DNA of 64,000 nt from Bradyrhizobium sp. 186 (GTDB lineage: Bacteria > Pseudomonadota > Alphaproteobacteria > Rhizobiales > Xanthobacteraceae): NCBI RefSeq assembly GCF_023101685.1, contig NZ_CP082164.1, positions 9,889,001-9,953,000 on the forward strand, read 5' to 3'. The stretch's first letter is position 1. The number at the start of each line of letters is the position of its first letter. Under the pieces are notes generated by a model that had not been told where the DNA came from, did no database searches, and saw nothing but the letters and a program-made list of their open reading frames with translations. Made by a program: the position numbers and the translations under genes. Below, one piece after another: positions 16,421 through 58,173 of this stretch.

Positions 16421-16507
16421 CGTAGCCCGGATGGAGCGAAGCGCAATCCGGGAAAATCTATCCGCGAGGTGAGAACCCGGATTTCGCTGCGCTCCATCCG
16501 GGCTACG
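16421..16507. repeat. Palindromic intergenic repeat, family A (copy 1)
   Basis: The left arm CGTAGCCCGGATGGAGCGAA is mirrored on the right by GCGCTCCATCCGGGCTACG. The same pair of arms recurs at 22094-22186 and 58069-58173. It lies between accA and xerD, right beside the xerD stop. Confidence 0.85.
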
Positions 16508-22093: not shown

Positions 22094-22186
22094 GCGTAGC
22101 CCGGATGGAGCGCAAGCGTAATCCGGGTCTTTCTGGCATAGCGATCTATCTTCCCCGGATTACGCTTCGCTCCATCCGGGCTACGC
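22094..22186. repeat. Palindromic intergenic repeat, family A (copy 2)
   Basis: GCGTAGCCCGGATGGAGCGC on the left is mirrored by GCTCCATCCGGGCTACGC on the right. It lies between the convergent J-domain and citrate-synthase-like genes, where it could act as a terminator for both. Confidence 0.85.
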
Positions 22187-22187
22187 A

Positions 22188-23282
22188 TCATTCCTTCGGC
22201 ATCGCCCCCACATAGGACGAGCTCGGCCGGATCAACCGCCCTGTGCGCTGCTGCTCGCGCGCATGCGCGGTCCAGCCCGCGCTGCGGGCGACCGCGAAGA
22301 TCGGCGTAAAAGCCTGGCGGGGGATGGCGAGCGCATCGAGCAGGATAGCGGTGAAGAACTCCACATTCGTCTCCAGCGGCCGGTCCGGGTTCTTCTTGCG
22401 CAGCGCTGCGCGGATGTAGGCCTCGACCTCGCCGGCGAAAGGCAAACCGGCGCCCTCGGTGGAAAGCCGCTCGATCGCGGCCTTGAGCACGTCGGCGCGC
22501 GGATCGCGCACGCGATAGACGCGATGGCCGAAACCCATCAGCCGCTCGCCGCGCGCGAGCGCCGCATCGACCCATGGCTTGATCCGCTCGCTCGAGCCGA
22601 TCGCATCCAGCATTTCCAGCACTGGCTCCGGCGCGCCGCCATGCAGCGGCCCGGTCAGCGCGCAATAGCCGGCCGTGACGGCGGCGAACAGATCGGCCTG
22701 GGTGGACGCCACCACGCGCGTGGTGAAAGTCGACGCATTCATGCCGTGATCGCAGACCGTGACGAAATAGGCATCCAAAGCGGCGACCTTGCGCGGTTCC
22801 GGCGCGGCGCCACGCAGCATGCGAAGCGTATCGGCGGCATGGCTCGCGTTCGGATCCGGTGTGAGCGGATCGAGCCCTTTGGTGCGCCGGACCAGTGCGC
22901 CAGCAATTACCGGAAACGCGCCGACAATGGTGGCTTCGTGCTCCAGCCCGTTCTCTGCGCGAAGGCCCGCGACCGCCGCGCGAAAACCGTCGACGATATT
23001 CATGCCGCTTGTCGCCGGCAGCAGGTCCGGCAGCCGCGCGAAGGCGCGCTCGCGGGCGGCGCCGAGACTTGCCCGCACATTGGCCTCGCTGAGCGTGCTC
23101 TTGCTGGCGCCGTTCCAGAGCCGGGCGGTGACGCCCTCGAAGCTCGATTTGGCGGCGAAGGTGCCGACATGCTCGCCGGCGATGATCAGCTGGCCGCGCT
23201 CGCCGTCGACATGGCTCAGCACGGTCTCGGCCGCCGGAACGCCGTCCAGCCCGATCTGGCTTTTGGTGAGGTGGATGTTCAT
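22188..23282 (-). CDS. Citrate synthase-family protein with a Glu in place of the catalytic Asp
   Basis: The ATG at 23282 has CAGGAG upstream (364 residues). Citrate-synthase landmarks are present: NASTFTTRVVASTQADL, the first catalytic His in TGPLHGGAPEPVLEML, and the second in MGFGHRVYRVRDPRAD. The usual catalytic-Asp motif NVD(F/Y) here reads NVEFFTAILLDAL, so Asp has become Glu; GAPEP also departs from the usual GANEA. It could be a low-activity citrate or 2-methylcitrate synthase, one with another acyl acceptor, or a partner subunit of the divergent homologue at 23359. Confidence 0.85.
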   Translation of the reverse strand: MNIHLTKSQIGLDGVPAAETVLSHVDGERGQLIIAGEHVGTFAAKSSFEGVTARLWNGASKSTLSEANVRASLGAARERAFARLPDLLPATSGMNIVDGFRAAVAGLRAENGLEHEATIVGAFPVIAGALVRRTKGLDPLTPDPNASHAADTLRMLRGAAPEPRKVAALDAYFVTVCDHGMNASTFTTRVVASTQADLFAAVTAGYCALTGPLHGGAPEPVLEMLDAIGSSERIKPWVDAALARGERLMGFGHRVYRVRDPRADVLKAAIERLSTEGAGLPFAGEVEAYIRAALRKKNPDRPLETNVEFFTAILLDALAIPRQAFTPIFAVARSAGWTAHAREQQRTGRLIRPSSSYVGAMPKE

Positions 23283-23327
23283 GGCCCAAATCTCCTGTTC
23301 ACGAGGGGAAAGGTCGGGCCTCTCGAC

Positions 23328-23357
23328 AGATTGATCAATCTTGATTACATAAATCAA
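23328..23357. promoter_or_regulatory. Two palindromes in the divergent citrate-synthase promoter region
   Basis: AGATTGATCAATCT (23328-23341) is a perfect 14-bp palindrome. It runs directly into TTGATT-ACATA-AATCAA (23341-23357), a second perfect inverted repeat ending just before the ATG at 23359. Both share the half-site TTGAT/ATCAA. They fill much of the 76 bp between the divergent genes, one of which encodes a DNA-binding domain, so autoregulation is a natural hypothesis. Confidence 0.5.
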
Positions 23358-23358
23358 T

Positions 23359-24585
23359 ATGAAAAATTCTCCGGAGCTCTACCTCTCCGCCCGGGAAGCT
23401 GCCGCCGAGCTCGCGATCTCGCCGGCCACGCTCTACGCCTATGTCAGCCGCGGCCTGATCCGCTCCGAGCCGACGCCGGACTCGCGCAAGAACCGCTACC
23501 GCGCCGAGGACGTCCGTACCCTGAAGGAGCGCCGTGTGCCCTCGCCGGAGCCGCGCGGCCTGCGCAGCTTCGATGCCGACCTACCGGTGATGGATACGGA
23601 GATCTCGACCATCACCGAGGACGGCCCGATCTATCGCGGCGTGAACTGCGTCGATCTCGCCGAGAGCGACACGCTGGAGCACACCGCGACGTTGCTCTGG
23701 GACGTCTCGAGCGTCGATCCCTTCGCGCCTGACAATTATCCTGTGGTCTCCGACGAGATGCGGGCGATTGCGCAGGCCGCGCGCCGTGCCGCGCCGATCG
23801 ATCGCGCCATTGCGGTGCTGGCGCTGGCGTCGAGCGCCGATCCCCGCGCCTTCACCCGCGCGCATGATGGACGTGCGATGGTCGGTGCGCGCATTGTCCG
23901 ACTCCTGGTCGCGACCATGCTCAATACGGAGCCGTCAGCCGAGCCGTTGCACCAGCAAATCGCCAAGGCCTGGGCACCCGACAACAAGCACGCGGCCGAT
24001 CTCATCCGCCGCGCGCTGGTTCTGCTCGCCGAGCATGAACTGAACGCCTCCACCTTCACTGCGCGCTGCGCGGCGTCGACCGGCCTCAATCTCTATGATT
24101 CCGTCATCGCCGGCCTCGCCGCGCTGAAGGGGCCGAAGCACGGCGGCGCCGGCGTGCTCGCCTCGCAGCTCGTCAAGATGCTGGTGGATCGTGACGTCGA
24201 GCCGATGGTCCGCGAACGCGTCGCGCTCGGCGAACGCTTTGCCGGATTCGGCCATGGCGTCTACAAGCGCGGCGATCGGCGCGCGCAGTCGCTCCTGAAC
24301 GCGCTGTCGCGTGCCGGCGCGCCGCGAAAGTTCACGCGCGAAGTGCCGGAGCGCATCGCTGAAGCGACCGGCGAGCTCGTCAATATCGATTATGCGCTCG
24401 CGGTGCTCGTGCACGCCCTGCGCCTGCCCGCCGGCAGCGAGCTCGCGCTGTTCGCGATGGCCCGCAGCGTCGGCTGGATCGCGCATGCCAGCGAACAGTT
24501 GCAGTTCGGCAAGCTGATCCGCCCGCGTGCGCGTTATGTCGGACCTGCGCCGGGGCGGAGGACGATGATGGAGCCGAAGACCTAA
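23359..24585 (+). CDS. Citrate synthase-family protein with N-terminal MerR/excisionase-like HTH
   Basis: Residues about 8-60 form a MerR/HTH_17-like DNA-binding domain (YLSAREAAAELAISPATLYA, then RYRAEDVRTLKERR). Residues about 75-400 are a citrate-synthase domain with NASTFTARCAASTGLN, the first His in GPKHGGAG, the second in FGHGVYKRGDRRAQ and the catalytic Asp kept in NIDYALAV. The usual Arg after the second His (GHR) is Gly here. No Shine-Dalgarno precedes the ATG, so translation may be leaderless. It may be an enzyme that also regulates transcription, or a sensor using the fold to bind acyl-CoA/oxaloacetate (inference). Confidence 0.85.
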   Translation: MKNSPELYLSAREAAAELAISPATLYAYVSRGLIRSEPTPDSRKNRYRAEDVRTLKERRVPSPEPRGLRSFDADLPVMDTEISTITEDGPIYRGVNCVDLAESDTLEHTATLLWDVSSVDPFAPDNYPVVSDEMRAIAQAARRAAPIDRAIAVLALASSADPRAFTRAHDGRAMVGARIVRLLVATMLNTEPSAEPLHQQIAKAWAPDNKHAADLIRRALVLLAEHELNASTFTARCAASTGLNLYDSVIAGLAALKGPKHGGAGVLASQLVKMLVDRDVEPMVRERVALGERFAGFGHGVYKRGDRRAQSLLNALSRAGAPRKFTREVPERIAEATGELVNIDYALAVLVHALRLPAGSELALFAMARSVGWIAHASEQLQFGKLIRPRARYVGPAPGRRTMMEPKT

Positions 24586-26867: not shown

Positions 26868-27149
26868 TCACAGTGATTTTGACGTTTTGATACCGAGCCA
26901 TTCGAGGATCGGCAAGCTTTCCGGCGGCACGAGGATTTCGATGCTTCTGGGGACGCCAGGTTGACGGCGAATGAAACCGTTTCGTTCGAGGGTGACGATC
27001 ATCTGGTGGACCGAAGGCGGGCTGACGCGGAAATGGCGCTGCATGTCGGTTTCGGCGGGTGGGCGTCCGAACATGTGCGCGTAGGTGTAGATAAAGGCCA
27101 GGTAGTGTCCCTGCTTCTCCGTGAAGTGCGTGCCTGATTTTTGACTCAT
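26868..27149 (-). CDS. Small winged-helix protein carried by the IS element
   Basis: About 93 residues, starting at the ATG at 27149 (MSQKSGTHFTEKQGHYLAF). The core MQRHFRVSPPSVHQMIVTLE followed by RNGFIRRQPGVPRSIEILV is a LexA/MarR-like winged helix-turn-helix. It is transcribed away from the transposase and its end overlaps the left inverted repeat. It may repress transposase expression (inference). The frame extends to 27176, but the later ATG fits better. Confidence 0.75.
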   Translation of the reverse strand: MSQKSGTHFTEKQGHYLAFIYTYAHMFGRPPAETDMQRHFRVSPPSVHQMIVTLERNGFIRRQPGVPRSIEILVPPESLPILEWLGIKTSKSL

Positions 27150-27187
27150 CGCTGGATTCGTCCCGGCCTCCGACAAGGAGGCGAAGC

Positions 27188-28318
27188 ATGAATGTACGTT
27201 ATCGGGTCGAATTGAGCCAAATCGAGCGGGACGAACTGACGGCGATGCTGGGCGGCGGGAAGCATGCTGCCCGCAAGCTCAAGCGGGCGCAGATTTTGCT
27301 GGCGGCCGATGCCGGCAGTTGCGACGCGGAGATTGCCCGGTCTGTCCGGGTCAGCCTGTCCAGCATCGGCCGGACCAAGCGCCGCTTCGTGGAAGGCAAT
27401 CTGGAGCGGGCCTTGAGCGAGGAACCGCGTCCGGGCGCAGAGCGCAAATTGACCGGCAAGGAGGAGGCCCTGCTGGTGGCGACGGCGTGCGCCAAGCCGC
27501 CCGCCGGCCGCAAACGTTGGACGCTGACGCTGCTGGCGGACACGATGGTCAAGCTCACCGATCATGACAGCCTGTCGGGCGAGACCGTGCGTCGCCGGCT
27601 GGCCGAGAACGACCTCAAGCCATGGCGCAGGGACATGTGGTGCATCCCCTATGTCGACGGCGAATACGTCGCCCGCATGGAGGACGTGCTCGACCTCTAC
27701 GCCGAGGCGCCGGATCCCGTCCGGCCGCTGGTCTGCTTCGACGAGACCCCCGTCCAGCTCATCGGCGAGGTCCGTCAGCCGATTCCAGCCGAGCCGGGAC
27801 AGCGCGAGCGTTACGATTACGAGTACCGCCGCAACGGCACCGTCAATCTCTTCGTTACCTTCGACCCGCATCGTGGCTGGCGCAACGTCAAGGTCACCGA
27901 GCACCGCGCCGCCGTGGACTACGCCTACTGCATGCGCGAACTCGTCGACGTCCATTATCCCGACGCCGACTGCATCCGCCTCGTGCAGGACAATCTGTCG
28001 ATCCATACCGCCGGCGCGTTGTATCAAGCATTTGCGCCTGCTGAGGCCCGTCGCATCCTGCGCCGCCTCGAATTCCACTTCACCCCGAAACACGCCAGTT
28101 GGCTCAATATGGTCGAGTGCGAGATCAGCGTGCTCCAGCGCCAGTGCCTCGGCCGCCGCATCGACGACCCCAAAAGGCTCCGAAACGAGATCGCAGCATG
28201 GCAAAAGCGGCGGAATAAAACCCGAGCCCGCATCAAATGGATGTTCACAACCGACAAGGCCCGCGCCAAACTCGGCCGCGCCTATCCAGCCACCGCCAAA
28301 GAGTCAAAATCACTGTGA
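27188..28318 (+). CDS. IS630 family transposase
   Basis: The 376-residue protein has an N-terminal HTH region (about residues 30-80, ILLAADAGSCDAEIARSVRV) and a DDE catalytic domain: Asp185 in CFDETPVQLIGEV, Asp268 in LVQDNLSIHTAGALY and Glu310 in HASWLNMVECEIS. AAGGAG precedes the ATG at 27188. The gene is intact and runs into the right inverted repeat, so the element may still be active. Confidence 0.93.
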   Translation: MNVRYRVELSQIERDELTAMLGGGKHAARKLKRAQILLAADAGSCDAEIARSVRVSLSSIGRTKRRFVEGNLERALSEEPRPGAERKLTGKEEALLVATACAKPPAGRKRWTLTLLADTMVKLTDHDSLSGETVRRRLAENDLKPWRRDMWCIPYVDGEYVARMEDVLDLYAEAPDPVRPLVCFDETPVQLIGEVRQPIPAEPGQRERYDYEYRRNGTVNLFVTFDPHRGWRNVKVTEHRAAVDYAYCMRELVDVHYPDADCIRLVQDNLSIHTAGALYQAFAPAEARRILRRLEFHFTPKHASWLNMVECEISVLQRQCLGRRIDDPKRLRNEIAAWQKRRNKTRARIKWMFTTDKARAKLGRAYPATAKESKSL

Positions 28319-58068: not shown

Positions 58069-58173
58069 GTAGCCCGGATGGAGCGCAAGCGTAATCCGGG
58101 TTTCGTGCCACGCGGGGCAGTCGGGAGATTCGGTTGGTCCGTCCCGGATTGCGCTTCGCTCCATCCGGGCTAC
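58069..58173. repeat. Palindromic intergenic repeat, family A (copy 3)
   Basis: GTAGCCCGGATGGAGCGCAA is mirrored on the right by GCTTCGCTCCATCCGGGCTAC. The arms match those at 16421 and 22094; the central spacer differs. Confidence 0.85.

Follow-up and report, generated by a model that had tools for sequence, protein, structure and literature searches.

A citrate synthase-fold protein with a MerR/HTH_17-like domain as a probable one-component regulator next to a CitA-type citrate synthase gene in Bradyrhizobium

Introduction

The operators of MerR-family regulators lie between the -35 and -10 elements, which are separated by a long spacer. MocR/GabR regulators combine a winged GntR-type helix-turn-helix (HTH) with a sensor that has the fold of a PLP-dependent aminotransferase. 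As described in two reports (PMC4944035, PMC5734734), the latter are one-component regulators in which an HTH is joined to a whole enzyme fold. Broad queries of the open-access literature, with subscription papers mostly outside their scope, returned no description of a regulator with a citrate synthase fold among the matches listed.

Citrate synthase genes that occur in pairs have been reported. In Caulobacter crescentus, the extra citrate synthase genes citB and citC (CCNA_03757/03758) have consecutive locus tags, like the pair described here, and CitB, which is 37% identical to Bacillus subtilis CitA, is reported to complement an Escherichia coli gltA deletion, which CitC does not (PMC7083601). 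The main text of that paper contains no mention of "merr" or "helix-turn-helix." Judging from the consecutive locus tags and the similar identities, CitB is probably the orthologue of the plain synthase at our locus, and CitC that of its HTH-bearing neighbor. In Streptomyces coelicolor, SCO5831/SCO5832 (citA3/citA4) form a citrate synthase pair of which the shared intergenic region is bound by MtrA (PMC12323332), at a site unlike the operator-like site that we describe; SCO5831 is also mentioned in PMC9739823.

Here, we analyze a stretch of 64,000 nucleotides from Bradyrhizobium sp. 186 (the window), in which one of two divergent citrate synthase homologues carries an N-terminal HTH. We propose, with a probability of roughly 0.8 and on the basis of sequence comparison, that this HTH-citrate-synthase protein (HTH-CS) is a one-component transcription regulator with a citrate synthase-fold sensor that controls itself and the adjacent synthase gene. 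The proposal rests on the anatomy of the protein, the conservation and position of an operator-like site, the tracking of this site with the gene, the variable neighbors, and a set of invariant arginines.

Results and Discussion

HTH-CS (408 amino acids [aa]) is encoded at positions 23359 to 24585 on the plus strand, separated by an intergenic gap of 76 bp from a divergent CitA-type (PRK12350/NF009005) citrate synthase of 364 aa at positions 22188 to 23282 on the minus strand, the proposed main target gene. This partner most likely starts with the ATG at 23282 and not, as in the mechanical open reading frame (ORF), with the TTG at 23357. A sequence-only reading of the window had noted a divergent pair of citrate synthase homologues, one fused to an HTH, which is borne out by the Pfam matches (HTH_17 plus Citrate_synt) and by the partner's place on the minus strand. 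In HTH-CS, the HTH_17/MerR-like DNA-binding domain, with the core TLYAYVSRG, spans residues 8 to 59 (positions 23380 to 23535, plus strand), and the citrate synthase-fold domain, the proposed sensor, spans residues 74 to 390 (positions 23578 to 24528, plus strand). The HTH_17 score of 27.4 bits exceeds the cut-off of 27 by a margin of 0.4 bits, and the scores for MerR (21.7 versus 28.2 bits) and MerR_1 (19.7 versus 21.6 bits) stay below their cut-offs. Citrate_synt (PF00285) is matched at 208 bits, over a cut-off of 27, and the NF009005/PRK12350 model for CitA-type synthases is missed at 163.8 bits versus 332. Structure prediction gave an HTH plus a complete citrate synthase domain with high confidence. 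Together with the Pfam matches, this model places an HTH and a sensor domain in one chain, the architecture of one-component regulators. The stretch LY..VSRG of the HTH core is invariant in alignments of 21 and 90 HTH-CS rows and altered in loci L137, L195, and L207 (YASRG) and L188 and L198 (VGRK).

The proposed working principle, an HTH with an enzyme-fold sensor, resembles that of MocR/GabR, from which HTH-CS differs in its MerR/HTH_17-like HTH and its citrate synthase fold. The N-terminal HTH is similar to that of the MerR family, but the MerR and MerR_1 scores below cut-off and the large enzyme-fold sensor set HTH-CS apart; no consensus promoter was seen around the operator-like site. By its sequence, the HTH-CS family is separate from MocR/GabR and only marginally MerR-like.

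In the window protein, alignment shows a complete active-site set of H226 (in EHELNAST), H261 (GPKHGG), H299 (GFGHG), R308, D344, R369, and R388, which we take to be the catalytic His and Asp and the carboxylate-binding Arg residues. Each of the seven is kept in 89 or 90 of the 90 rows of alignment A3, which comprises the window protein and 89 of 237 listed proteins. At the position of Asp344 (in NID; positions 24388 to 24390, plus strand), the catalytic Asp position, D is found in all 90 rows and in 47/54 members of a wider set. His299 is followed by Gly300 (positions 24256 to 24258, plus strand), which gives GHG where other synthases have Arg in GHR. The sequence-only reading had these residues right, but GHG cannot be maintained as a functional change, as this position varies among the 90 rows (P in 61, R in 14, G in 7, Q in 6, and others in 2).

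Possibly, HTH-CS is a trigger enzyme, that is, an active (methyl)citrate synthase as well as a regulator, with substrate supply deciding whether it acts as a catalyst or binds DNA. The near-complete retention of the seven active-site residues is consistent with this, as is the superposition of the HTH-CS fold on CS and PrpC structures, substrate complexes among them. On the other hand, the catalytic His/Asp are lost in some HTH-CS proteins that nevertheless have the operator-like site (L090, L140, L141, and L201) and the three carboxylate-binding arginines, the latter being kept in 54/54 HTH-CS proteins, even where catalytic residues are gone. In addition, CitC of C. crescentus, the probable orthologue, fails to replace GltA in E. 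coli (PMC7083601). We consider a trigger enzyme rather unlikely. A divergent HTH-CS subfamily (L176, L178, L183, and L186) retains the three arginines, is devoid of some catalytic residues through loss, and has no site; the gene 3' of HTH-CS is BacA-like in L176, and ORFs of 267 to 268 aa are found there in the other three.

The favored reading, a regulator with a citrate synthase-fold sensor, draws on the site between the two genes. This operator-like site (TCAATCTTGATTACATAAATCAA, 23 bp, positions 23335 to 23357) forms a conserved block in intergenic alignments: across 81 intergenic regions (78 of them different), one block is constant and the rest is variable. A palindrome (ATTGATCAAT, positions 23330 to 23339) overlies its left end and is represented by ATTGACGTCAAT in some relatives and missing in others. 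The site pattern is the palindromic TCAATMTTGAWN7RTCAA, which we defined on 25 order-level loci (25/25 at 16/16 positions) and then fixed. Of 80 close Bradyrhizobium-type loci, 78 match at 16 positions and 2 at 15, and the pattern lies beside the HTH-CS start at loci with 37 to 47% protein identity. Among 51 HTH-CS loci fetched later, 43 match at 15 or 16 of the 16 pattern positions, two of these (L135 and L201) only with a 6-bp spacer, while the best score in 102 block-shuffled loci was 14 of 16. These 51 consist of 44 loci (10 plasmid and 34 whole genome) plus seven further plasmid loci; they include five from genomes of the defining set (G081, L090/L202; G126, L093/L203; G084, L095/L204; G087, L094/L174; and G093, L110/L175) and three groups of near-identical kin (L137, L195, and L212; L188 and L198; L177 and L206), and the HTH-CS of L190 was read inside an overlong ORF. 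Site-bearing loci span alpha-, beta-, and gammaproteobacteria as well as Deinococcus. The site is absent from 8/51 loci (L176, L178, L180, L183, L186, L188, L198, and L210), seven of which score below 310 bits against the family profile, the exception being L180 with 454 bits.

A survey of 398 Pseudomonadota genomes located the exact site in 40/53 genomes with a full-length HTH-CS versus 12/345 without (Fisher P = 7e-33, kinship ignored), where at most 4 candidates were scored per genome and some of the 345 genomes may carry an HTH-CS. One genome (G437) was counted among the 53 from the genome scan, without a view of its locus. A backward control pattern was present in 2/398 genomes. The 53 genomes contain 42 exact sites, 41 of which adjoin the HTH-CS gene or the operon that includes it. 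Thirteen HTH-CS genomes have no exact site; among them, G305, G392, G388, and G520 carry a site at 15/16 positions and G166 carries the form with the 6-bp spacer. The exact sites in the 12 genomes without a detected HTH-CS (G417, G444, G506, G155, G452, G159, G187, G303, G231, G182, G376, and G352) may reflect chance, missed genes, or orphan targets. In the genome from which the window comes (10.77 Mb), the pattern occurs once exactly, twice with one mismatch, and 15 times with two, one of the 15 overlapping the operator itself on the opposite strand; the backward control does not occur. We take the mismatched sites elsewhere in this genome for chance. A scan of positions 23150 to 23450 revealed no sigma-70 consensus promoter around the site.

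The divergent neighbor of HTH-CS is less constant than the site. Among the 44 loci, in which position and codon-position GC guided the choice of neighbors among mechanical ORFs, it is a CitA-type synthase in 14 (15/51 with the seven further loci), a CaiB-type CoA-transferase in 8, a PrpB-like protein (PEP_mutase/ICL domain) in 4, all with a same-strand PrpC-like synthase nearby, a 2-hydroxyacid dehydrogenase in 5, two of them across an operon ending in HTH-CS, and a major facilitator superfamily (MFS) transporter with a 2-hydroxyacid dehydrogenase in 2. There are single cases of an HMGL-like protein, TctC, and a methyltransferase; cation efflux (3/44) and MipA (2/44) genes account for five loci, all without the site; and three neighbors have no assignment (L176, which has no Pfam match, L186, and L190). 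At the seven further loci, where neighbor names come from record annotation, the neighbors are two DUF2332 genes, two hydroxyacid dehydrogenase operons, a CitA-type synthase, a ring-hydroxylating dioxygenase at a locus that lacks the site, and one unannotated neighbor (L213). It should be kept in mind that the 51 loci were picked mostly outside the order, inside which the CitA-type share is 23/25. The site is present beside genes for CitA-type synthase, CoA-transferase, PrpB, 2-hydroxyacid dehydrogenase, MFS, HMGL-like protein, TctC, methyltransferase, and DUF2332. Since the divergent neighbor changes while the site stays, HTH-CS looks like a local regulator. The sharpest case is found in Burkholderia cepacia and two close relatives, where HTH-CS is the last gene of an SDR-MFS-VOC-HTH-CS operon and the sites lie ~3 kb upstream, between this operon and a divergent D-glycerate dehydrogenase gene. 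In a Roseomonas plasmid (L209) and a Pseudoroseomonas plasmid (L214), HTH-CS and a DUF2332 gene flank the site, which may hint at the role of DUF2332.

This behavior bears on a second explanation, namely, that HTH-CS is an ordinary citrate or methylcitrate synthase in which the HTH is a relic, the site being owned by another regulator. The active site is indeed kept, database records annotate these proteins as citrate synthase, and the Pfam HTH score is marginal. Yet the HTH core is invariant across 90 rows, and the site follows HTH-CS rather than the neighbor, even to an operon promoter ~3 kb away. Furthermore, in a tree that includes no A3 rows and not L210, a 100/100 branch sets the HTH-CS rows apart, and the plain synthases group in a clade of their own. 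An ordinary synthase with a vestigial HTH therefore seems improbable to us. In contrast, the tracking of the site and the varying neighbors give good support, as far as sequence can tell, to one suggestion of the sequence-only reading, namely, that the HTH form acts as a metabolite-sensing regulator.

The partner has the motifs DHGMNAST, GPLHGG, GFGHR, and NVE, the last containing Glu308 (positions 22359 to 22361, minus strand) at the catalytic Asp position, as the sequence-only reading had described (both His, GHR, and NVE for NVD). It exceeds the curated NF009005 cut-off (437.4 bits versus 332), which was passed by 1/14 control genomes, matches PF00285 at 329.5 bits (cut-off, 27), and is 37.7% identical to B. 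subtilis CitA over 361 aligned columns. Because Glu occupies the Asp position in 19/19 aligned partners as well as in B. subtilis and Mycobacterium tuberculosis CitA, the closest solved relatives of the partner, the Asp-to-Glu change is the norm of the clade. In a wider comparison, Glu was found in 17/17 CitA-type partners plus B. subtilis CitA, and the six remaining plain synthases, namely, three PrpC-like ones, the genome's own GltA-like protein, and two more, had Asp. The residue changes that had been offered as a clue are thus real, but neither carries the special meaning attached to it, Glu being usual in the clade and the GHG position variable. A degenerate partner is rejected on the same 19/19 count, and by sequence the partner is a normal member of the known CitA-type clade. 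Citrate synthase domains occur at four places in the genome, the GltA-like gene, the two genes of the pair, and an open frame of 293 aa that the domain model matches in part.

Linkage of the two genes is tight near home. The same divergent pair occurs in 80/80 close loci with a gap of 72 to 84 bp; nearly all of these are titled Bradyrhizobium, and they include a few metagenome-assembled genomes and one record titled Frankia sp. RB7 (L060). In the latter, the HTH-CS is 91% identical and the pair is present, so its title is probably wrong. In match lists for 40 genomes of the genus, with HTH-CS recognized by place and strand, 36 had both genes (G542 as fragments only, G560 with a fragmented partner), and the remaining 4 (G534, G543, G552, and G559) had neither. 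A full-length HTH-CS is present in 25/150 genomes of the order, with a divergent citrate synthase in 23 of the 25 and a CoA-transferase as the divergent gene in the other two (G087 and G093). The only Actinomycetota locus that we looked at (Nonomuraea, L208) encodes a plain citrate synthase. The co-occurrence that the sequence-only reading had asked to see surveyed holds for close loci and most order-level loci and is seen in 15/51 loci of the wider set.

That reading had also raised a mixed enzyme, an obligate heterodimer of HTH-CS and the plain synthase with shared active sites. The 80/80 linkage and the finding of both genes or neither in 40/40 genus genomes (fragments counted) fit this idea, but such co-inheritance is equally expected for a regulator and its target, 36/51 wider loci have no divergent CitA-type synthase (4 of these with a PrpC-like one nearby), the plain clade is separate with complete active sites and Glu in 19/19, and Caulobacter CitB, the likely orthologue of the partner, is functional by itself in E. 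coli (PMC7083601), so that we judge it very improbable. As a general explanation it is rejected; a heterodimer confined to this one organism is possible.

Two other features of the window may be mentioned. An inverted repeat with GTAGCCCGGATGGAGCG arms occurs in three copies (positions 16422 to 16506, 22096 to 22184, and 58069 to 58173). The copy at 22096 to 22184 lies just downstream of the partner synthase; with a folding energy of -70 kcal/mol (z, -12), it is a possible terminator or REP-like element. Judged by their translations, the ORF at 27188 to 28318 resembles an IS630-type transposase, and the adjoining ORF at 26868 to 27176 may contain a LexA-like HTH.

How might HTH-CS work as a regulator? 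Binding of the site by HTH-CS, its dimeric state, the ligand, and the sign of control are elements that we infer. Two MerR/HTH_17-like N-terminal domains would bind the 23-bp palindromic site within the promoter region common to both genes, the citrate synthase fold holding the regulator dimer together. The citrate synthase domain would keep an oxaloacetate-type carboxylate pocket that closes on a di- or tricarboxylate, and this closing would alter DNA binding. Probable ligands are oxaloacetate together with an acyl-CoA, or else citrate or 2-methylcitrate as the product; methylcitrate-type ligands are favored because of the PrpB contexts of HTH-CS. In this genome, the targets would be the divergent CitA-type synthase gene and the regulator's own gene, whereas elsewhere HTH-CS may control prpBC-like genes, CaiB-type CoA-transferases, 2-hydroxyacid dehydrogenase operons, and others. 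With one base between the site and the HTH-CS ATG and 52 bases between it and that of the partner, a protein bound there should influence both genes, and the position of the site at the start of the regulator gene points to autorepression. We lean slightly toward control by relief of repression over activation.

Some observations count against a regulator. All catalytic residues are retained in most HTH-CS proteins, that of the window included, as in an enzyme. The HTH_17 margin is 0.4 bits, 8/51 loci are siteless, and no sigma-70-type promoter was seen around the site. Finally, the exact site occurs in 12 genomes without a detected HTH-CS, which is more than for the backward control (2/398).

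Conclusions

Our analysis suggests that regulators with a citrate synthase fold are widespread, and they have apparently gone undescribed. More tentatively, and at somewhat less than even odds, HTH-CS proteins may represent a new transcription factor family that gauges central carbon supply with a citrate synthase active site, in which the substrate-closed or product-bound state sets DNA binding and turnover is possible, and which has been rewired to citrate synthase, methylcitrate pathway, CoA-transferase, and hydroxyacid genes. If HTH-CS is a regulator, then many Pseudomonadota and at least one Deinococcus would have regulators among the proteins now recorded as citrate synthases, and metabolic models that count these regulators as enzymes would need correcting. 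It may also explain why the Caulobacter paralogue CitC does not work as a citrate synthase in E. coli. Any genome could be searched for the predicted operator, and there would be a first entry point into how second citrate synthases, several uncharacterized acid catabolism operons and, in some Pseudomonadota, prpBC-like genes are controlled. Citrate synthase would thereby join the enzyme folds that are used as transcription sensors.
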